Assembly (NCBI GenBank): GCA_036480375.1
Contig: JAZGGI010000024.1
Location: 1 to 64,000 of the forward strand
Length of the DNA stretch: 64,000 nucleotides
Direction: 5' to 3'
Source: Candidatus Zixiibacteriota bacterium
Lineage (GTDB): Bacteria > Zixibacteria > MSB-5A5 > GN15 > JAAZOE01
Of this stretch, positions 38,513 to 63,402 are shown in pieces. A program made the position numbers and the translations under genes. The notes beneath the pieces were generated by a model, which saw nothing but the letters and a program-made list of their open reading frames with translations, was not told the DNA's origin and made no database searches. The number at the start of each line of letters is the position of its first letter. Position 1 is the stretch's first letter.

Positions 38513-38959
38513 TTGGGGTTGATTGAGTTCGACACAATAATAATCAGCCGTTCCCCCGCCCATACTGAAAAGCTGGCCGCCGGATTTTATGAAATTGTAG
38601 GCAATAGCGGAGTTATTGCTCTCTACGGTCCACTGGGGGCGGGCAAAACGGTATTCGTACGAGGTTTTGCCGCTGCTGCCGGGGTCGATCCTGATAAGGT
38701 AAACTCGCCTTCGTTCACTCTGGTTAACGAGTATCCGGGCGGGCAAACGCCGATATTCCATTTTGACCTATATCGATTCAAGAAGGCATCTGAATTTCAT
38801 GATATCGGCGGGGATGATTATTTAAGCCGCGAAGGAATTGCCCTGATAGAATGGGCTGAAAACGGAGTTGGATTTATACCTGAAAACCGGTTTGAGATAG
38901 AAATTGATATCATTGATGAAACCAGCCGTTCTCTGATATTCAGGAAAATTGAGAAATGA
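38513..38959 (+). CDS. tsaE: tRNA threonylcarbamoyladenosine biosynthesis ATPase TsaE
   Basis: This 148-residue P-loop ATPase has YGPLGAGKTVFVRGFA (about 39-54) as Walker A, PSFTLVNEYPG (about 69-79), FHFDLYR (about 84-90) and a late IEWAENG, all TsaE signatures. It works with TsaB, TsaD and TsaC to make t6A37 in ANN-reading tRNAs. The start is TTG at 38513 or 38519; no ATG is near. It overlaps tsaB by 4 bases. Confidence 0.94.
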   Translation: MGLIEFDTIIISRSPAHTEKLAAGFYEIVGNSGVIALYGPLGAGKTVFVRGFAAAAGVDPDKVNSPSFTLVNEYPGGQTPIFHFDLYRFKKASEFHDIGGDDYLSREGIALIEWAENGVGFIPENRFEIEIDIIDETSRSLIFRKIEK

Positions 38960-39624
38960 AAATTCTGGGCATCGATAGTTCCACCGATCGACTAAGCGTT
39001 GGGCTTTGCCGTGACGGAAAAATTATTTCTGACAGGTCCATCGATTCTTTACGCGAGCATGGTTCCCGTATCATGGGATTGATTGATTCTACTCTCAAGG
39101 GAAGCAAAATAGAAGTTATAGCTCTGGACGGCGTCGCCGTCGCCGTCGGCCCGGGATCGTTTACGGGTTTGAGAGTCGGGATGGCGGCCGCCAAAGGTTT
39201 GGCTCAGGCTTTGAATATTCCAATTGTTGGAATCTCGACTTTTGAAGTTGTGGCCCACAGATTACTCAACGAAGTGGATGAATTTGTTCTCGTTGAACAA
39301 GCCCGCAAAGGTGAGTTTTACTTTTGCCACATGGATATCGAGTCCGACATATTATCGAATATGAAATTAGTGGCGTTAGAAAATCTCGGAGTGAAAGTGG
39401 AAAATTTGCCTGTCGGTTTGATTGGGGTTGCAGCCGATTGGCCAATTGAATCCAATCAAACAATACATTCTGAAAAAACTAAGGTATCCGGAGCAGAACT
39501 GGCGATTTTGGGTGAGGAGAAAATTCTAAACGGTCGGGCTGATGATTTGGCTCAATTGGAACCTTTATATATCGCGCCTTCTCAGGCAGAGATCAAATAT
39601 GGAAGAACTAAATCCTCAAATTAA
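38956..39624 (+). CDS. tsaB: tRNA threonylcarbamoyladenosine biosynthesis protein TsaB
   Basis: This 222-residue ASKHA-fold protein starts MKILGIDSSTDRLSVGL and has the hallmark AVAVGPGSFTGLRVGMAAAKGLA (about 55-77, two pieces), then VGISTFEVVAHRL. TsaB is the non-catalytic partner that holds TsaD and TsaE in the t6A synthesis complex. The order tsaE-tsaB-rimI is widely conserved in bacteria. The start overlaps the tsaE stop by 4 bases, and the end overlaps the rimI start by 26 bases. Confidence 0.95.
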   Translation: MKILGIDSSTDRLSVGLCRDGKIISDRSIDSLREHGSRIMGLIDSTLKGSKIEVIALDGVAVAVGPGSFTGLRVGMAAAKGLAQALNIPIVGISTFEVVAHRLLNEVDEFVLVEQARKGEFYFCHMDIESDILSNMKLVALENLGVKVENLPVGLIGVAADWPIESNQTIHSEKTKVSGAELAILGEEKILNGRADDLAQLEPLYIAPSQAEIKYGRTKSSN

Positions 39625-54017: not shown

Positions 54018-55712
54018 CTAAATTGTAGGCGCCGGATCGGTTATTTCCTCCAGAGTATGATATATTATCGGATCGACATGATCCTGCCGCCAGCCGACGC
54101 GCTGGAAAACCCGCAAAGATGGAGTTCCCGGCGGAAGGTTGCCGGGGTCAGTCAGATCGGTATCAAAGGCCCAATCACGGTTGGGCGGAGTATAGTATGT
54201 TCCGTCCCAGTTTCCAATTGCTTCCTGAGAAACCCAGAGACATATCATTGATCCGCGATAAGTCAAAGTTCTGTCCGACCAATTTTCCAGAAAACGAGGA
54301 AGGTTTTCCAACCCTCCGTTATATCCCGCTCCGTCTTCACCGGAATTTTTATTGCCGGTTATGAACGAAAAATTCGCCGTGGTCGATAGGGCCGTTCTGT
54401 TATTTTTATCATCCGAACCGGAAACCAGGGGATCATCTAGCCAATTGCCGGATAGAATCGTCAGGGCATCGGCAATAATTGCCATCGGTTTTTTATTATT
54501 AGAATTGATATCGCCCATGGTATAAACCGGATTTTCAGAAGCAATTGTCAGCGACGCACCGATATCTTCAGCATTGTAAATACGAGTGCCTCTCAATCCG
54601 GTCCTGTTATCGGCCGTATAAATGTTTCCATTCGACGGGAAATAAGCGGAATTTTTGAATATGTTCATATCTATATCGTAAACGACAGCGTCTTTATTTT
54701 CCCGTTTATCATGGAAAGTTGATTCCTTCAACGAACCGTCGGCAAGAAGATTTGCCGTAACATTAACCCAGGATCCTCCACCAACGTCATATAAGGCTTG
54801 CCCGTCAATGATTTTGAAAGCTGCGTTATGCTCGAAAGATTCGTTGTTCCCTCCGTCAAAAGAGGCTCTATTGATAATCTTATGCGCGTCTTCGTCCGGA
54901 TTATCGAAGGGCAGTCTCAATTTTTCCTGTCCAAAATCGGAGTCTTTTACCCGCCCTCCCCAGCGGGTCGAAGCGGTGTCAAACCAGTGATCGTCATTGG
55001 CATCCAGCCAGTCGCTTCCGTCGCGCATGGAATAATAATTCCCATCCATACCCAGTATATTTACTTCGCCATTGGCCTCGCCGGCGCCGGAGCCTGGTTT
55101 GCGGCCATGATAAATACTACCGTATGATGTCAAATAAGAGTTAATGTCCAAGCTGTTTCCGGATTGAAGATAGATGTTTTTATTTGAATGAATTCGTCCG
55201 TTAATCACCATTGTTGGTCCGGGGGCGATTTCAAGATCATTTTCGTAAAAAACCGCGAATTGAAAAATCGGCACCAGGGCGCATTCAAACTCCTGATAAA
55301 GTCTAACCTGGCTCCCATCGACCAACGATGTCCCGATTGATTCAATCGTGTAAGTTTTAACGCTAGCGTGCAGACCTGCAAAATCTCCCTGAGCCAGCTT
55401 TTTATTTTCAAAGGCGCCGTTGTCGGTAGTCACATACGCTACATTCGCCGAGGGGAGACCTTCACTGCCGGATGGCATTGTTTCCGGCGGAGCGCCATGT
55501 TCTTCATAATATGTTTGCAATGCGGCCGCGGCTTTTTCCAGCCCCGCTTCAGCCGTATAAAAGGCGACCATCTCATTCATTTCGTTACCGGCAATTGAAA
55601 TTTCGTCATTGGAGGTCTTTATAATTCCAATGCCAATAATGGTAAGCATCAGGGTCAACATCAGGGCAATAAATAATGCCATTCCTTTTTCATTTTTTAT
55701 GACGCGAAACAT
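54018..55712 (-). CDS. Type IV pilus assembly protein, PilX-like
   Basis: This 564-residue protein is counted from the ATG at 55712, which has AAGGAG 7 bases upstream; a TTG at 55730 is weaker. The N-terminus KNEKGMALFIALMLTLMLTIIGIG has a short basic leader ending in G and a hydrophobic helix, as in PilX-type minor pilins. The next region (SNDEISIAGNEMNEMVAFYTAEAGLEKAAAAL) has the conserved ExAF/AEAGLE segment. The large remaining C-terminal domain holds a stretch of repeated GxxN/DxN loops, much longer than the usual 200 residues, so it may have an added adhesive domain. It is the third gene of the pilin operon. Confidence 0.85.
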   Translation of the reverse strand: MFRVIKNEKGMALFIALMLTLMLTIIGIGIIKTSNDEISIAGNEMNEMVAFYTAEAGLEKAAAALQTYYEEHGAPPETMPSGSEGLPSANVAYVTTDNGAFENKKLAQGDFAGLHASVKTYTIESIGTSLVDGSQVRLYQEFECALVPIFQFAVFYENDLEIAPGPTMVINGRIHSNKNIYLQSGNSLDINSYLTSYGSIYHGRKPGSGAGEANGEVNILGMDGNYYSMRDGSDWLDANDDHWFDTASTRWGGRVKDSDFGQEKLRLPFDNPDEDAHKIINRASFDGGNNESFEHNAAFKIIDGQALYDVGGGSWVNVTANLLADGSLKESTFHDKRENKDAVVYDIDMNIFKNSAYFPSNGNIYTADNRTGLRGTRIYNAEDIGASLTIASENPVYTMGDINSNNKKPMAIIADALTILSGNWLDDPLVSGSDDKNNRTALSTTANFSFITGNKNSGEDGAGYNGGLENLPRFLENWSDRTLTYRGSMICLWVSQEAIGNWDGTYYTPPNRDWAFDTDLTDPGNLPPGTPSLRVFQRVGWRQDHVDPIIYHTLEEITDPAPTI

Positions 55713-55735
55713 TAGTCCGCTCCTTGGCAACGAGA

Positions 55736-56548
55736 TTAAGTTCCCAGGTTTCTAAGGTAAACCTGCGATTGATAAGTTTCGAATCGATACGGCTCTTCCT
55801 CAAATTCAATATCGGATCTTTCGGTACGGGCGGTCACGGCGATACTGATTCGCCGGACATCATTAACTAAAGTCGGGCTATCCATGGTGATACCGTTTCT
55901 AAGTGTATAGGTGAATTGCAAATCGGCTATGTCTTCGGCATAAATTTGCGGTAGGGCGTTTCCGAACTGAACCATTAACCGAGGGTGAAGGGTATCGCTA
56001 TAATCGATATAATACTTTACTTTTTCTATGGTATACAAATTCGAACCGGACGGATAGGCTTTGGACAACACGGATGTATTATGCTGGATATGCGATGATC
56101 CGGTTTGAACTTCTGTAATTGTAAAGAATTCCCCGCTTTCGGTGTTAGGATCATGTATGTAGGCAATCTGTCCTTCCTCAAAACAGCTAACGTCATACCC
56201 GTCGCAACTCAATTCAGATGATGGATTGGGCATAGAATTTACAATCGGAGCGTCACAGGATGACGTCCGGTAGTGAAGCATTATCGTATCCGGATCAGTG
56301 TTTGAAGCCTCAAAAGCGTTTAGGCCATTTGGCAGATCGTATCCGGCCATTCTGATTTGACGGGTCAACTCATCTATTGAGGCTCTGGCATTTTGCTGCA
56401 TTTCGATAACAGAATCCTGGATATTCCAGGCATGGTGTTGATTAATATAAACCCTGAACATCACCGCCGATATTATCCCGGTCAAAAGAACCGCCAATAG
56501 TATTTCAACCAGAGTCACGCCCTTATTCGATTTTAATATTTTCATCAT
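55736..56548 (-). CDS. Prepilin-type protein, PilW-like
   Basis: This 270-residue protein begins with a class III signal sequence: SNKGVTLVEILLAVLLTGIIS, with cleavage after G and the conserved Glu at position 5 of the mature protein. Residues NARASIDELTRQIRMAGYD are the PilW-type helix-loop. The C-terminal part is beta-rich, with a Cys-containing loop (CDGYDVSCFEE). It is a minor pilin that primes pilus assembly. It lies 10 bases from the next gene in a pilV-pilW-pilX-like order. Confidence 0.88.
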   Translation of the reverse strand: MMKILKSNKGVTLVEILLAVLLTGIISAVMFRVYINQHHAWNIQDSVIEMQQNARASIDELTRQIRMAGYDLPNGLNAFEASNTDPDTIMLHYRTSSCDAPIVNSMPNPSSELSCDGYDVSCFEEGQIAYIHDPNTESGEFFTITEVQTGSSHIQHNTSVLSKAYPSGSNLYTIEKVKYYIDYSDTLHPRLMVQFGNALPQIYAEDIADLQFTYTLRNGITMDSPTLVNDVRRISIAVTARTERSDIEFEEEPYRFETYQSQVYLRNLGT

Positions 56549-56558
56549 GTCATCCTCC

Positions 56559-56921
56559 TTAAGGCGCGTCGGTCTTAATCAAAGAATTAATGGCGTAAGA
56601 CCTGACGGTTGAATCGGGGGAGACCCAGGTGGCGGAGATGGATACTTCTCGGAGGTGAGATCCGGCGTCGCTTACAACCCATTCTCGAAGTATACCATCT
56701 ACCGTATCTTCTCCTGAAACCGGTTCATTTTCAGCCCGTAATTCCTCAAGTTTTTGCTGAAGTAGTTGAGTGCAGGTGGTTGTGCTTGATGCCCAGCTGT
56801 TCCCGTCAACGGCGACCATAGCCATATGCAAAAGAAGCATTAAGGAAAAAGCCATGATAAACATTGATGTCAAAACTTCGAGGAGGGAAAAGCCATCTTC
56901 GTTAAATAGTTTTATTTTCAT
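56559..56921 (-). CDS. Prepilin-type protein, PilV-like
   Basis: This 120-residue protein starts with NEDGFSLLEVLTSMFIMAFSL, with prepilin peptidase cleavage after G and the conserved Glu at +5, then TCTQLLQQKLEELRAE and a short beta-domain. PilV/PulI-type minor pilins have this size. It is the first gene of the minus-strand pilin operon. No major pilin, FimT/GspH or secretion ATPase is in the window. Confidence 0.87.
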   Translation of the reverse strand: MKIKLFNEDGFSLLEVLTSMFIMAFSLMLLLHMAMVAVDGNSWASSTTTCTQLLQQKLEELRAENEPVSGEDTVDGILREWVVSDAGSHLREVSISATWVSPDSTVRSYAINSLIKTDAP

Positions 56922-57411: not shown

Positions 57412-58410
57412 ATGAATTATGAAGCTAAATTCCGATTGGCAATTGGATTCGGATTATTGATAATCTTTATCGGAACCACGGGTTATTCATTTTTGGAAGA
57501 CTGGGGAATTCTCGACTCCTTATATATGACGATAATTACTCTTTCTACGGTTGGATTTATGGAGGTTCGTCATCTATCCGAAGCCGGTCGTGTCTTTACC
57601 ATATTCCTAATTGTCTTTGGAGCATTTAATGCGGCCTTTATATTAACGGCTGCCGTACAATTTGTTTTACAGGGACAATTGGAATTGATACTGGGAAAAC
57701 GAAAAATGGAAAAAAAACTCCAAAAACTCGAAAACCATATTATCCTGTGCGGCCTTGGCCGAGTCGGCCGACAAATCGCCAGTGAATTTGAGCGGCGCAA
57801 GGAAAAATTCGTCGTAATCGAGCAGGACGTCGACATGGTTGAAGATGCTCGCAAGCAGGGATTTTACGTTCTGGAAGGCAATGCCGCCGATGATGAGGTC
57901 CTCGAACACGCCGGAATAGGCAAAGCCAGAGCAATTGTTTCGACCTTGCCCGATGACGCCGATAATGTTTACCTGGCCCTGACCGCCCGACAAATAAACT
58001 CGGATTTGCTGATAATCGCTCGCGCCGAAACACTGTTGGCCAAGAAAAAACTCCGTCGAGCCGGAGCGGACAAAGTGATATGCCCTCATGAATTAGGCGG
58101 CGTGCAGATGGCTATGGCGACCTTAAGACCCAATGTCGTCGATTTTCTGCAATTGGCCACGGTTGTTCCGGGAGGCGAACGATTGGGGATCGAAGAAATC
58201 ACGATTAGAGATGGCGGTATTTTGACAGGAAAAAGCATTATTGAGGCCGCCATAAAATCAAAATATGACGCCATCGTCGTTGGATTACGAAAAGGAACAG
58301 GTCAGATTTTATTTAATCCTTCGGGTGAAACAACTATGGAAAATGGAGATATTTTAATTGTTTTGGGAGAGAACGGCACCCTTGAAAGATTGTCGGCTGA
58401 TTTAGCATAA
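57412..58410 (+). CDS. Potassium-channel/RCK (TrkA-N, TrkA-C) protein with unusual pore motif
   Basis: This 332-residue protein has two membrane helices (about 8-26 and 60-82) around a pore loop TIITLSTVGFMEV (T46-V47-G48-F49-M50-E51). It is followed by a TrkA-N Rossmann domain beginning HIILCGLGRVGRQIASEF (about 108-125) and a TrkA-C domain (about 245-330). This MthK-like layout makes a ligand-gated K+ channel. The filter reads TVGFM rather than TVGYG, so the second glycine of the selectivity filter is missing. The ion selectivity is thus uncertain. The channel gate would respond to nucleotide or Ca2+ binding to RCK. Confidence 0.85.
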   Translation: MNYEAKFRLAIGFGLLIIFIGTTGYSFLEDWGILDSLYMTIITLSTVGFMEVRHLSEAGRVFTIFLIVFGAFNAAFILTAAVQFVLQGQLELILGKRKMEKKLQKLENHIILCGLGRVGRQIASEFERRKEKFVVIEQDVDMVEDARKQGFYVLEGNAADDEVLEHAGIGKARAIVSTLPDDADNVYLALTARQINSDLLIIARAETLLAKKKLRRAGADKVICPHELGGVQMAMATLRPNVVDFLQLATVVPGGERLGIEEITIRDGGILTGKSIIEAAIKSKYDAIVVGLRKGTGQILFNPSGETTMENGDILIVLGENGTLERLSADLA

Positions 58411-58536: not shown

Positions 58537-61014
58537 ATGTTTGATCGTACTGGAAACTACCTGATCTACGCCATTTTGCTTAGTATGATCTTGGGTGTTG
58601 CCTTTGTAGGTATCTTCGGGGATGCCGGACTTCATGTCAAATTCCTCGGCGATATGTTCCTGGCGGCATTGAAGATGGTTGTCATTCCGCTTCTGTTCTT
58701 TTCCATGGTGGTTGGTATATCCAACCTCGGAGATGTCCGCAAGCTCGGCCGGACCGGAGCCAAAACAATCGGGTATTTTTTGGCTACCAGCACTATCGCG
58801 GTAGTCATTGGCTTAATACTGGTCAATTTGATTCAACCGGGCAGCGGATTTACCTTTTCCGGAGCGGCCGCTCCGGAAACAATCGGCCATCAGGATTCAT
58901 ATTCCTTTTTCACATGGCTGACGGATCAAATACCCTCTAACATCCTTAAGGCCGCGGCCGAGACGAAAGTTTTGCCAGTAATCGTCTTTGCCTTGATTTT
59001 CGGCGGCGTGTTGACCACAATCGGCAGTAAAGGAAGAACTGTGATTTCCTTTTGCGATGCCGTGAACGATGTCTTTATGAAAATCGTGCATCTGATTATG
59101 TGGTTCGCTCCGATCGGAATTTTCGGTCTTGTTGCCGGTCAATTGGCGGCTGAAGGAGGCCTCAGTCAATTTACCTCAATTTTATCCGCTTTGGGCAAAT
59201 ACAGCGCTGTCGTGATTATCGGACTATTGATCCACGGCATTTTCATTCTCCCGCTGGCCCTTAAGTTTATGGCCGGGAAATCACCGATTGAGTATTTTGT
59301 CGGGATGTCTCAGGCGTTAATGACCGCATTTGCGACAGCTTCTTCTTCGGCGACTCTGCCGGTGACGATGGACTGCGTCGCGGAAAAAAATGACATTGAC
59401 AAACGGGCATCGTCGTTCGTTTTGCCTTTGGGCGCGACCATTAATATGGACGGAACGGCTCTTTATGAAGCCGTCGCCGCGCTCTTTATCGCGCAGGCTT
59501 ATGGGATTTCCCTCGGGATTGTCGGGCAAATTACTATCTGCCTGACGGCGGTACTCGCTTCGATTGGAGCGGCAGGAATTCCTCAGGCCGGTTTGATTAC
59601 GATGGTGCTTGTTTTGCAGGCGGTTGGCCTGCCTCTGGAAGGAATCGGGTTGATTTTGTCGATCGACTGGTTCCTTGACCGCTGTCGCACTACCGTAAAC
59701 GTCTGGGGCGATTCAATCGGCGCCGCCGTAATCGCCACTACAGCCGAGATCGGTCTCGTTGATCGGCGAAGACGAAAACCCGAGAAATCAACCTGGATGA
59801 AATCGACCGCGCGTCGTAAAGATACGCCCAGAAAACGGCAGAAACCAGATTCGACGCGTAAGGTAAAGGGTAAACCGATCTCGACGGTTTCGAAACGGAG
59901 CAGCGTACCCGACAAAACGGCCACTAAACCCGCCGAAAAAAGAGGGCGCAAATCAAGTCGCGTGGCGCAGAAACCCATCAAGAGGATTCATAAAGTTGAT
60001 TCGTCTCCTCTTAAAGGTGGTCGTGAGGAATATGGTCCGCAAGACATTCGGAAATCAATTTCAGGCGATGAACCGATTAAGAAAAAACCAATTCGGGGAT
60101 CTGAAAAGTCCCGAAAAACAGGTTCGTCTAAATCACTGGTTGAACCGAAGGTGGAACCGACTGCAAAAGCAAAACCGCGGGTTTCCAAATCAAATGGGGA
60201 AGCGCGTGAGAAATCTGCCGACGACAAGCCAATCTTTGGCAGGCGACAAAAATCATCTCCGGTGAAGAAAAAGCCTGATTCCAAATTTGAAAATGATGAT
60301 TCCGCTTTAAAAAAATCGGAACCGATTTCGAATTCAGGCAACACTTTTGATGTCCCGAAGTTTCCTTCAAGCATTCTCGATGATCTAAAAGTACCCGATT
60401 TATCGGGTGATCATGGAGAGGAAGAGAAGGCTACTGAAGATGCCCATAATTTGGGCAATTTCGATTTAGAATCGAAACCGATGGAAATTTCTTCTGATGC
60501 AACAATTGAAGAAACAAGCCCTTCCGTTGAGACTGAATCCGAATCGATACCGGAAAGTTCGAAGAAAGAATTCGAACGATTGGATAGAGCTGTCCTGGGT
60601 AATGACACCGCTGAAAAATCTGATTCATCAAACGATTCTGATTCTCATGAAGTTCAACAGGAATCAAGCGATAATGGTGATATGATTTCAATGTCGGATA
60701 ATGACCCGTCTTTACCCGAAGCTGACAGACCGATTGAAACCGAAATGCCTGATACTCCGGGTAAGATTGTTTCGGAAGTATCGCCAATGGAATCTGATAG
60801 TCAGGAGTCTGTTGATGATGTAACGACTTCGGAAGACAAAATTACGGTAAAGTTATCAGAAATTTCTGATGCTCCGCCCGAACCGGTAGAGGAATCTTTA
60901 CCTGAGGATTCTCGGATCGACTCAACTTCGGAGGATATCGCTCCGCTCAAAGATGAGGATACTGAAGAGCCTCTTGAATGGGGCAGAACAAAAAGGAAGC
61001 GTAATCGAAAATAA
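58537..61014 (+). CDS. Dicarboxylate/amino acid:cation symporter (SDF/GltP) with long charged C-terminal tail
   Basis: This 825-residue protein has an N-terminal transporter of about 408 residues with about eight membrane helices and the SDF hallmarks FATASSSATLPVTMDC (serine-rich re-entrant loop, about 268-283), NMDGTALYEA (about 308-317) and the final TTVNVWGDSIGAAVIA helix. It takes up dicarboxylates or glutamate-like amino acids with H+ or Na+. The other half is a non-membrane tail. Residues about 410-600 are rich in Lys, Arg, Pro and Ser. Residues about 600-815 are rich in Asp, Glu, Ser and Thr. A basic RTKRKRNRK end closes the protein. The tail has no globular motif and is much longer than the 10-40 residues usual in the family. 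It is probably intrinsically disordered. Confidence 0.92.
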   Translation: MFDRTGNYLIYAILLSMILGVAFVGIFGDAGLHVKFLGDMFLAALKMVVIPLLFFSMVVGISNLGDVRKLGRTGAKTIGYFLATSTIAVVIGLILVNLIQPGSGFTFSGAAAPETIGHQDSYSFFTWLTDQIPSNILKAAAETKVLPVIVFALIFGGVLTTIGSKGRTVISFCDAVNDVFMKIVHLIMWFAPIGIFGLVAGQLAAEGGLSQFTSILSALGKYSAVVIIGLLIHGIFILPLALKFMAGKSPIEYFVGMSQALMTAFATASSSATLPVTMDCVAEKNDIDKRASSFVLPLGATINMDGTALYEAVAALFIAQAYGISLGIVGQITICLTAVLASIGAAGIPQAGLITMVLVLQAVGLPLEGIGLILSIDWFLDRCRTTVNVWGDSIGAAVIATTAEIGLVDRRRRKPEKSTWMKSTARRKDTPRKRQKPDSTRKVKGKPISTVSKRSSVPDKTATKPAEKRGRKSSRVAQKPIKRIHKVDSSPLKGGREEYGPQDIRKSISGDEPIKKKPIRGSEKSRKTGSSKSLVEPKVEPTAKAKPRVSKSNGEAREKSADDKPIFGRRQKSSPVKKKPDSKFENDDSALKKSEPISNSGNTFDVPKFPSSILDDLKVPDLSGDHGEEEKATEDAHNLGNFDLESKPMEISSDATIEETSPSVETESESIPESSKKEFERLDRAVLGNDTAEKSDSSNDSDSHEVQQESSDNGDMISMSDNDPSLPEADRPIETEMPDTPGKIVSEVSPMESDSQESVDDVTTSEDKITVKLSEISDAPPEPVEESLPEDSRIDSTSEDIAPLKDEDTEEPLEWGRTKRKRNRK

Positions 61015-61221: not shown

Positions 61222-62076
61222 ATGAATAATCTAAAAGTAACTTTTTTGTTGCTCCTCCTGACGATCTTGTTCGTCGCCGTCGGATTCATGCTCGGCGGCC
61301 AGCGGGGGATGGTCATCGCTTTTGGTCTGGCCGTCCTGATGAACTTTTTCTCGTATTGGTTCTCGGACAAAATTGTCTTGAGAATGTATCGCGCTCGTCC
61401 AACCGACGAGAATGCCGATTCCAAATTAATCAGCATTGTCAGAAACGCCGCCCAGATGGCCCAATTGCCGATGCCCAAAGTTTATGTCATTCCCACCCGA
61501 GCGCCCAATGCTTTTGCCACCGGCCGCAATAAAGATCATGCCGCCGTTGCCGTCACTGAAGGTCTGATGCAGCTTCTCGGGCGGGATGAACTGGCCGGTG
61601 TTATTAGTCATGAACTGGCGCATGTCAAGAATAGAGATATATTGATTGGCTCTATCGTGGCCACAATCGCAGGAGCAATTGCAATTCTCGCCTCAATCGC
61701 TCGCTGGGGAGCCATATTCGGCGGATACGGCCGGAGCAGTGATCGCAATGGGGGAATCTTTGAATTGTTAGCTATCGCTATCGTTGCCCCGATAGTGGCC
61801 ATGCTGATTCAAATGGCCATTTCGCGCTCGCGTGAATATAAAGCCGATCGCGTCGGCAGTCAAATATCGGGAAATCCCCTCGCCCTTGCCTCGGCTCTCG
61901 AAAAATTACATCGCGCTCCGGTACAATTGAACCTTGACAAAAAACCGGCCACAGCCCATCTTTTCATTGCCAGCCCCTTATCGGGCAAAGGAATCACTAA
62001 TCTTTTCTCAACCCATCCGCCGGTGGCTGAGAGAGTCAAACGGTTGGAAGCGATGGCAATGGGAACACTAAATTAA
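61222..62076 (+). CDS. htpX: Protease HtpX homologue
   Basis: This 284-residue membrane zinc metalloprotease has two N-terminal helices (about 7-24 and 29-47), the zinc motif HELAH (H130, E131, H134), the third ligand in SREYKADRVG (about residues 207-216) and two helices between them. HtpX works with FtsH in membrane-protein quality control at the inner membrane. The size, helices and FATGRNKDHAAVAVTEGL segment match the family closely. Confidence 0.95.
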   Translation: MNNLKVTFLLLLLTILFVAVGFMLGGQRGMVIAFGLAVLMNFFSYWFSDKIVLRMYRARPTDENADSKLISIVRNAAQMAQLPMPKVYVIPTRAPNAFATGRNKDHAAVAVTEGLMQLLGRDELAGVISHELAHVKNRDILIGSIVATIAGAIAILASIARWGAIFGGYGRSSDRNGGIFELLAIAIVAPIVAMLIQMAISRSREYKADRVGSQISGNPLALASALEKLHRAPVQLNLDKKPATAHLFIASPLSGKGITNLFSTHPPVAERVKRLEAMAMGTLN

Positions 62077-62109: not shown

Positions 62110-63402
62110 ATGGACAGATCGATTTTAGAGCTTAGCGCCATATTGGTTTTAATCTTGGCCAACGGTTTTTTCGCGGCTTCTGAGTTTGCCCTTATAGCCT
62201 CGCGCAAAAGTCTCCTGAAAAACTGGGCTAGGAAAGGCGATACCCGAGCCGCTCGTACTCGGGATTTTATAGCGCGCCCGGATAAATTTCTGGCCACCAT
62301 CCAGGTCGGTATAACATTTGTTGCTACTCTGGCGGGTGTCTTCAGCGGCGCGACACTGGTTCAGTATCTTGTTCCGTCTCTTCAAAAAATCCCAATAGAG
62401 ATCATTCAAAACGCCGCCGGGCCGATTGCGATTGGGATTGTCGTTATTGTAATTTCGTTTTTGTCCATTGTCATCGGCGAACTGATTCCCAAGTATATCG
62501 CTCTGGCCGCTCCCGAAAAAATCGCCATCTTAGTTACCCGACCGATTTCAATATTTTCAAAACTGAGTTTCTTCGTCGTTACTTTTCTCACCGGTTCGGC
62601 GAGATTTATCCTGAGGATTTTCGGATTTTCAAAAACTCAGGAGAGGACCGGCATTACCGAAGAAGAAATCAATATCCTGATTTCCGAGGGCATCGAAAAA
62701 GGTGTCTTCGATAAAACCGAACAGAAACTCATTAAATCTGTTTTTGATTTTTCGGATATCACCGTTCGGCAATCGATGACGCCCCGCGTCGATTTTATCA
62801 GCATCAGGCTGGATTGGCCCAGAGAAAAAATCGTCAAGGTTATGACCACTCACGGATATTCCCGCTACCCCGTGTTTCGGGAATCTTTGGATCGCATAGA
62901 GGGCATTATCTATACTAAAGATTTGATATCTTTCATGGTTCATGATGAAATGATTATCCTGAAAGATATCATCCGCAAACCTCTATTCGTGCCCGATTCA
63001 ATGCCTCTAACCGTTCTACTCCGGAAATTCCAAAAAAAGAAAATACATATCGCGATCGTGCTTGATGAATTCGGGGGTACCGCCGGTCTGATTACGCTCG
63101 AAGATATTCTTGAAGAAATCGTCGGCGAAATACAGGATGAGCATGATACCGCCCAGCCGGAATTTGTTGCCCATTCCGATAAAATGGCCTGTGTTGCGGC
63201 TTCTCTCCGACCGGATGAACTGAACGAATCATTTGATCTCCAAATGCCGGAAGAGATTTCAGATACGATCGGCGGTTTTATTATTGAGAATCTGAACCAT
63301 CGGCCGCAATTGGGAGATGAAGTAATATACGATAAAATCCAATTTAAAATTCTTGAAATGGACAGCGGGCGAATAAAGCGAGTTCAGGTGAGGAAACTTT
63401 AA
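62110..63402 (+). CDS. CNNM/CorC-HlyC family membrane protein with CBS pair
   Basis: This 430-residue protein has an N-terminal DUF21 (CNNM) membrane domain with about four helices (1-180; NGFFAASEFALIASRKS and SIVIGELIPKYIAL are typical), two CBS domains (about 215-335; TPRVDFISI ... GYSRYPVFRESLDRIEGIIY) and a CorC_HlyC domain (about 350-430; AASLRPDELNESFD). Relatives are linked to Mg2+ or Co2+ efflux, and the CBS pair binds adenine nucleotide. It starts 33 bases after htpX, so the two may be co-transcribed. Confidence 0.93.
   Translation: MDRSILELSAILVLILANGFFAASEFALIASRKSLLKNWARKGDTRAARTRDFIARPDKFLATIQVGITFVATLAGVFSGATLVQYLVPSLQKIPIEIIQNAAGPIAIGIVVIVISFLSIVIGELIPKYIALAAPEKIAILVTRPISIFSKLSFFVVTFLTGSARFILRIFGFSKTQERTGITEEEINILISEGIEKGVFDKTEQKLIKSVFDFSDITVRQSMTPRVDFISIRLDWPREKIVKVMTTHGYSRYPVFRESLDRIEGIIYTKDLISFMVHDEMIILKDIIRKPLFVPDSMPLTVLLRKFQKKKIHIAIVLDEFGGTAGLITLEDILEEIVGEIQDEHDTAQPEFVAHSDKMACVAASLRPDELNESFDLQMPEEISDTIGGFIIENLNHRPQLGDEVIYDKIQFKILEMDSGRIKRVQVRKL

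Follow-up and report, generated by a model that had tools for sequence, protein, structure and literature searches.

The stretch of DNA analysed here, hereafter the window, spans 64 kb. On its plus strand, the open reading frame at 58537–61014 encodes 825 residues with zero internal stops and combines a sodium:dicarboxylate symporter (SDF) core with a long C-terminal tail. Such tails are present in all four families (f1–f4) of one Zixibacteria order and were not seen in the other orders or phyla examined. The features of the gene and its surroundings are collected in Table 1; no RNA family or tRNA was found within the window.

Table 1. Position of the SDF gene, the segments of its product and the flanking elements, in window coordinates.
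Feature	Positions	Strand	Basis or detail
TrkA-type potassium channel gene, upstream; neighbour in part of the order	57412..58410	+	
SDF core (PF00375), residues 1–405	58537..59751	+	Pfam, structure alignment, site residues
Basic half of tail, about residues 406–615, predicted disordered	59752..60381	+	Net charge; pLDDT mostly <50
REEYGPQ motif, residues 496–502, conserved in own family	60022..60042	+	Alignment, motif counts
Internal FGRR, residues 567–570, earlier copy of terminal motif	60235..60246	+	Alignment
VPKFPSSILDDL motif, residues 606–617, short predicted helix	60352..60387	+	Motif counts; helix 612–617
Acidic Asp/Glu/Ser-rich half of tail	60382..60978	+	Net charge per residue
FERLDRAVLG motif, residues 679–688, predicted helix	60571..60600	+	Alignment; helix 673–687
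C-terminal motif WGRTKRKRNRK	60979..61011	+	[WFY]GRx at end of 54/54 complete tails
Intrinsic-terminator-like hairpin just past stop codon	61034..61063	+	13-pair stem and T run
HtpX-like M48 membrane protease gene, conserved downstream neighbour	61222..62076	+	
CNNM/CorC-like gene, conserved downstream neighbour	62110..63402	+	

The SDF core was assigned through Pfam, with PF00375 matching residues 9–401 (E 2.8e-125; 418.8 bits against a cut-off of 27.9; profile positions 1–386 of 387). It could be aligned to solved aspartate transporters and human EAATs, and superposition of the predicted core onto the solved structures was only moderate. The substrate and sodium residues are intact (NMDGT at 303–307, D381, R384 and N388), and the equivalents of the NMD loop, T314, D394, R397 and N401 of GltPh are all present. 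In transporters of the GltPh type, the binding of both sodium and substrate involves the NMD loop, the substrate is held by the latter four residues, and the family forms trimers (PMC12668577, partial text). The curated NCBIfam cut-offs were not reached for DctA (261.5 of 513 and 227.2 of 570 bits), GltP (228.1 of 638 bits) or SstT (109.2 of 308 bits), and domains other than the SDF type were absent from the 825-residue protein in Pfam and NCBIfam searches at E ≤ 0.001.

Downstream of the gene, the hairpin has the longest stem of the eight terminator-like sites in the region, where 4.5 were expected. As it lies directly 3' of the stop codon, the SDF gene probably ends its own transcript, and a common transcript with htpX in the window is doubtful. 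The htpX gene follows in the same orientation at 49 of 60 loci holding an SDF gene, with the CNNM gene often behind it; the gap between the SDF gene and htpX measures 44–277 bp in 43 of these 49 loci and is larger in six. The tailed genes of f4 occupy the same locus as those of f1–f3. Upstream of the TrkA gene, the minus strand carries prepilin-like genes (54018–56921), whose products we take from their N-termini to be of the type IV pilin kind; neighbour clusters c9, c11 and c13 recur at the locus in the other f1 genomes of L051, L052 and L054, and partly in that of L055.

The tail and its reading frame

The initial annotation had described a symporter with a long extra tail that passes from basic to acidic and closes with a basic patch, and had proposed disorder and charge-patterning predictions as a check. 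This description was borne out. The accompanying interpretation, in which the tail might self-associate, bind ribosomes, nucleoid or phospholipid, or form condensates, finds support in part, through the kept fusion, the predicted disorder and the charge polarity of conserved sign. The SDF match stops at residue 401 and the same frame runs on to residue 825, giving a tail of about 420 residues that starts near residue 406. Net charge per residue in its successive sixths is +0.30, +0.13, +0.07, −0.20, −0.23 and −0.14, followed by the basic end, and none of 500 shuffles reached this polarity (z 5.9). Among 61 sequences, 54 complete tails of 199–478 residues were obtained (window included), in all of which the first half is the more positive; polarity lay beyond 99% of the tail's own shuffles in 34 of the 54 and within that range in the other 20. 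The polar-stretch score of the window tail (0.68) compares with 0.43 for the next best among the predicted proteins of the window. An AlphaFold prediction based on 22 sequences yielded tail pLDDT values mostly between 30 and 48, with helices at residues 612–617 and 673–687 on conserved motifs, and a short helix at residues 403–409 after the core, followed by disorder; confidence in the model as a whole is low (mean pLDDT 58.3, pTM 0.48). The tail is thus predicted to be intrinsically disordered except for the two short helices at conserved motifs. A search for a tandem-repeat origin revealed no large array.

Relatives were likewise found to keep the fusion: the 54 complete tails are continuous in frame with their cores, which excludes the missed stop or frameshift considered in the initial annotation, and inspection by eye of an alignment of five own-family members revealed no start codon in common from which the tail could be translated on its own. 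Exceptions to the continuous frame were an in-frame stop within the tail of L041 and frames running into masked bases in L058 and L242. Tail dN/dS was 0.30, 0.12 and 0.29 in three pairs of relatives, dS being saturated or not computable in four others, including window/L051; values this far below 1 argue for a translated protein instead of read-through of a missed stop. An artefact, or a neutral low-complexity extension, would accord with the speed at which most of the tail diverges (33% identity to L051, as opposed to 80% in the core), but is extremely improbable given these dN/dS ratios, the presence of the tail across the order and the universal end motif described below. Tails thus evolve faster than the core, yet under constraint. 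Separately, in-frame stops within SDF matches were recorded in genome searches for L013, L019, L022 and L041; in the first three, which are tailless f4 copies, the matched frame stops soon after the core.

Seven sequences were left out of the 54 tails: L041 (in-frame stop), L058 (masked bases), L064 (a different, tailless SDF protein), and L049, L178, L187 and L188 (contig end). L009 and L084, which are the same gene at a contig edge, were not among the 61 sequences. Counts of core residues include the rows left out of the 54, except L064 and L009/L084. Loci L238–L245 stand outside both the tail and the NMD counts, with L239, L243 and L245 cut by contig ends.

An SDF match was obtained in 56 of 60 genomes (own genome included) and in 102 of 132 genomes of the phylum. 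Among the best 80 loci of the genome collection, 69 had 1–17 residues after the core and nine had tails of 249–478 residues; of the remaining two, L084 is cut at the contig edge, and the tail of L086 continues into masked bases. The ten tailed loci among these 80 comprise nine titled Zixiibacteriota and one titled "FCB group bacterium" (compare G003, family f1). Twenty loci from families of other orders, several of which sit on short contigs, showed at most about 25 residues after the core and neither HtpX nor CNNM neighbours. No tail was present in L238, from another order, where the genome survey had listed a long frame, or in L244, an f4 protein of 36% identity, and 10 of 54 f4 genomes (completeness 69–93%) had no long tailed frame. 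Three further loci that bear other titles, L111 (titled Ignavibacteria), L120 and L140, group in trees with tailless Zixibacteria copies, as either mis-titled MAGs or products of gene transfer.

Conserved motifs of the tail

Outside the end motif, most of the tail aligns poorly between relatives. The end motif itself, [WFY]GRx followed by basic residues in the final 18 positions, occurs in all 54 complete tails and in 0.06% of shuffles, and 46 of the 54 carry the stricter form [WF]GRx[KR][KR]. Two f4 proteins outside this set, L240 and L241, have complete tails that also bear the motif; in L242, likewise from f4, the tail is closed at 100 residues, lacks the motif and contains masked bases. 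Four internal motifs were recognised in the window tail by comparison with its own family. In a five-sequence alignment, E497, Y499 and P501 of the REEYGPQ motif, G568 and R569 of the FGRR motif, and F679, L682, D683 and G688 of the FERLDRAVLG motif are invariant. The E.Y.P pattern recurs in all six f1 tails and in 1 of 36 f4 tails (2.7% of shuffles), and [VI]PKFP in all six f1 tails, being absent from the tails of the other families. Predicted confidence rises to pLDDT 51–65 in the VPKFPSSILDDL block and 66–68 in the FERLDRAVLG block. A second [WFY]GR lies 33–49 residues upstream of the terminal copy in 35 of 36 f4 tails, scanned within 60 residues. A TIERERxKIxAQL-like motif, presumably helical, was detected in 4 of 10 f3 and 16 of 36 f4 tails and in none from f1 or f2 (shuffle rate 0.000).

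The end motif was then sought elsewhere. At the C-terminus of another convincing gene it was not found in 12 genomes (own and 11 others), at a sensitivity of about one half: the patterns are blind to the arginine codons CGC and CGT, and the tailed SDF end was recovered in only 6 of the 12 genomes (in G029 it is masked). F-type end patterns gave 18 in-frame matches, namely three tailed SDF genes, two that read FGS and 13 others, one of which lies in a frame of 122 codons and the rest in frames of 7–39. With Y- and W-type patterns there were 24, comprising two tailed SDF genes and 22 others, of which two lie in frames of about 120 codons and the rest in frames of 9–34. A profile built from the tail ends of f4 (A4) matched once per genome in six f4 genomes, each time the SDF gene itself and nothing else, some of these genes being themselves rows of the profile. 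In four f1/f3 genomes it matched nothing, tailed SDF genes included, and its reach is therefore short. A generic sorting tag was rejected on these grounds, within the limits set by a sensitivity of about half, as the matches elsewhere were mostly very short frames. Two resemblances were recorded besides. In the own genome, L075 (G000:C28 near 194978) contains FGRRKRK inside, not at the end of, a 746-residue frame that we take to be a radical-SAM-like protein. Within the window, a 222-residue protein (38956–39624), presumably TsaB-like by its N-terminus, ends in YGRTKSSN, a likeness that appears due to chance.

Charge and motifs together could also indicate, in line with the initial annotation, a membrane tether for RNA, ribosomes or the nucleoid, acting through the Arg/Lys block and the [FYW]GR-basic motifs, perhaps with formation of condensates. 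A positive block beside the membrane, the conserved sign of the polarity and the arginine share among basic tail residues (0.48–0.74 by family) are consistent with this, and the internal [FY]GRxRxRRG copies look similar to RG-rich RNA-binding peptides. The conserved aromatic residue and the exact position at the end, however, resemble a protein-docking peptide more than unspecific charge, and we regard a nucleic acid tether as unlikely.

Fate of the transporter core in family f4

The NMD motif is kept in none of 40 f4 tailed cores, as against all 15 f4 tailless paralogues; it is kept in 16 of 20 tailed cores from f1–f3 (window included) and in 15 of 17 other tailless proteins, counts that are not independent of descent. 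The losses differ by species, with NASG, NVGA, NATG and QLAP among the variants at this position. The D394 equivalent is retained in 26 of the 40 f4 tailed cores and the residue corresponding to R384 (R397 of GltPh) in 34. A specific loss of ligand residues was not supported, as the kept fraction was 0.67 for ligand residues versus 0.59 for other invariant positions (20 cores). Judged from these sequences, the f4 tailed core is relaxed as a whole, ligand residues being lost no faster than other invariants, and it is therefore not necessarily dead: a changed substrate or coupling is possible in some or milder cases.

Continued transport by the f4 tailed copy in general, be it of a different substrate or with a changed ion coupling, together with a tail that regulates both kinds of protein, would agree with retention of the arginine that binds the side-chain carboxylate, and some f4 variants (NLD, R-A) presumably resemble proton- or dicarboxylate-type members. 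The heterogeneity of the losses, the limited retention of the D394 equivalent, the relaxation of the entire core and the long tree branches on which the f4 tailed cores lie all speak against it, which makes this explanation rather improbable. Autoregulation, in which the charged blocks and the terminal motif would bend back onto the transporter and gate it, would fit opposite blocks of conserved sign and the NMD motif intact in most f1–f3 copies, but f4 keeps its tail in all 40 cases in which the usual transport site was lost; this reading thus appears quite improbable.

A second SDF match of at least 50% identity was counted by hand in 31 of 40 f4 genomes, some being contig-end fragments. A close tailless copy was absent from the other nine, four of which had no second SDF match of any kind. 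The NMD motif was also lost in four f1/f3 tailed copies, those of G005 (L055), G008 (L047), G021 (L048) and G040 (L049), and none of the four genomes showed a second SDF match. In phylogenetic analysis, tailless f4 copies were found nested with tailed ones from f3, so that the 16 slower-evolving tailed cores are rejected as a single clade (AU test, p-AU 4e-5). This nesting can be read, though it is not proven, as loss of the tail in a duplicated or acquired copy; one gain of the tail with later losses would fit the trees as well.

The core might instead sense amino acid availability and pass a conformational change to the tail, as a transceptor of the Rgt2/Snf3 or CbrA kind. The architecture parallels Rgt2/Snf3 (tails of 213 and 337 residues there, 199–478 here), and many f4 genomes hold a tailless relative. 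A sensor of one ligand would nevertheless be expected to keep its site, whereas the f4 NMD loop and adjacent positions decayed differently in each species; an anchor or scaffold is therefore favoured over a sensor in f4. The neighbours that recur most widely in the order included no recognisable kinase or regulator, part of the neighbour clusters being identified. A sensory role is accordingly doubtful.

Proposed function and known counterparts

The best clues to function, both beyond the initial annotation, are that the tails end in an aromatic-Gly-Arg-x-basic motif and that the tailed copies of f4 have lost transport-site residues. Our preferred reading, to which we assign a probability of roughly 55%, is that of an SDF symporter with a disordered tail that docks a dedicated cytosolic partner, with transport separable from docking and the f4 core serving mainly as an anchor. 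The role of the tail seems separable from transport and is most likely that of a membrane-anchored docking platform. Specifically, a sodium-coupled symporter for acidic amino acids (or dicarboxylates) may have had its C-terminus extended early in one Zixibacteria order, the extension acting as an intrinsically disordered interaction platform in the cytosol. From known SDF topology, the C-terminus lies on the cytosolic side. Because the SDF core is trimeric, three tails would project from each membrane complex. Each would combine a basic brush next to the membrane with one or two short motifs able to form a helix, a run of acidic residues and, at its end, the motif that would dock the partner. 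We infer the cytosolic side of the tail, the trimer, the docking and the separation of functions.

With its intact transport site, the window protein probably both transports and docks. In f4, site residues are lost, tail and end motif are kept, and most genomes hold a tailless intact relative, so that the core would be mainly an anchor; retention of the end motif where the usual site is gone, together with constraint on the tail where transport residues are intact, makes separability of docking from transport the simplest reading. In a more specific version, tentative and at less than even odds, the f4 protein would throughout that family be a non-transporting trimeric scaffold or receptor acting through its disordered tail and a docking motif particular to the lineage, a prokaryotic counterpart of Rgt2/Snf3, and the window protein would represent the still bifunctional state. 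One order thus displays a probably bifunctional state and a state with the site lost and the tail kept, which makes it possible to trace and test how a transporter turns into a different kind of protein, and the conserved end motif offers a direct handle for finding the partner.

To our knowledge, yeast and a few bacterial cases (DctA–DcuS, CbrA) provide the best-known examples of transporters with a second role in signalling or as scaffolds, and we regard the present protein as a version of that design, the bifunctional transporter with a cytosolic interaction part. A paper on an SDF transporter with such a tail was not found in the open literature searched, part of which was represented by title and the start of the abstract. 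GltPh and the EAATs share the core fold and site residues, but the listed solved chains (409–581 residues, some from trimmed constructs) have no comparable long tail. Within the same SDF/DAACS family, DctA of E. coli is a structural co-regulator of the sensor kinase DcuS, which it binds via its C-terminal cytosolic helix H8b; this role depends neither on transport nor on the substrate site (PMC8307970, partial text). As proposed for the tails here, the segment of DctA past the last transmembrane helix binds the partner, although it is one short amphipathic helix, in contrast to the predicted disordered tail of 200–480 residues with a terminal motif. CbrA-type bacterial transceptors, as far as the source text available describes them, likewise unite a transporter and a cytosolic output part in one polypeptide, but the output of CbrA is a histidine kinase, which is absent from the window protein. 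In yeast, Rgt2 and Snf3 have a transporter-like core that does not transport glucose and cytosolic tails of 213 and 337 residues (PMC10876965, partial text). They resemble the tailed proteins in joining such a core to a long cytosolic C-terminal tail, which in the yeast receptors serves signalling, and in existing beside intact transporters. They differ in being eukaryotic, with a 12-transmembrane hexose-transporter (MFS) fold instead of an SDF core and with ligand recognition kept for sensing, and the window protein, unlike them, still has an intact transport site; the likeness is one of logic only.
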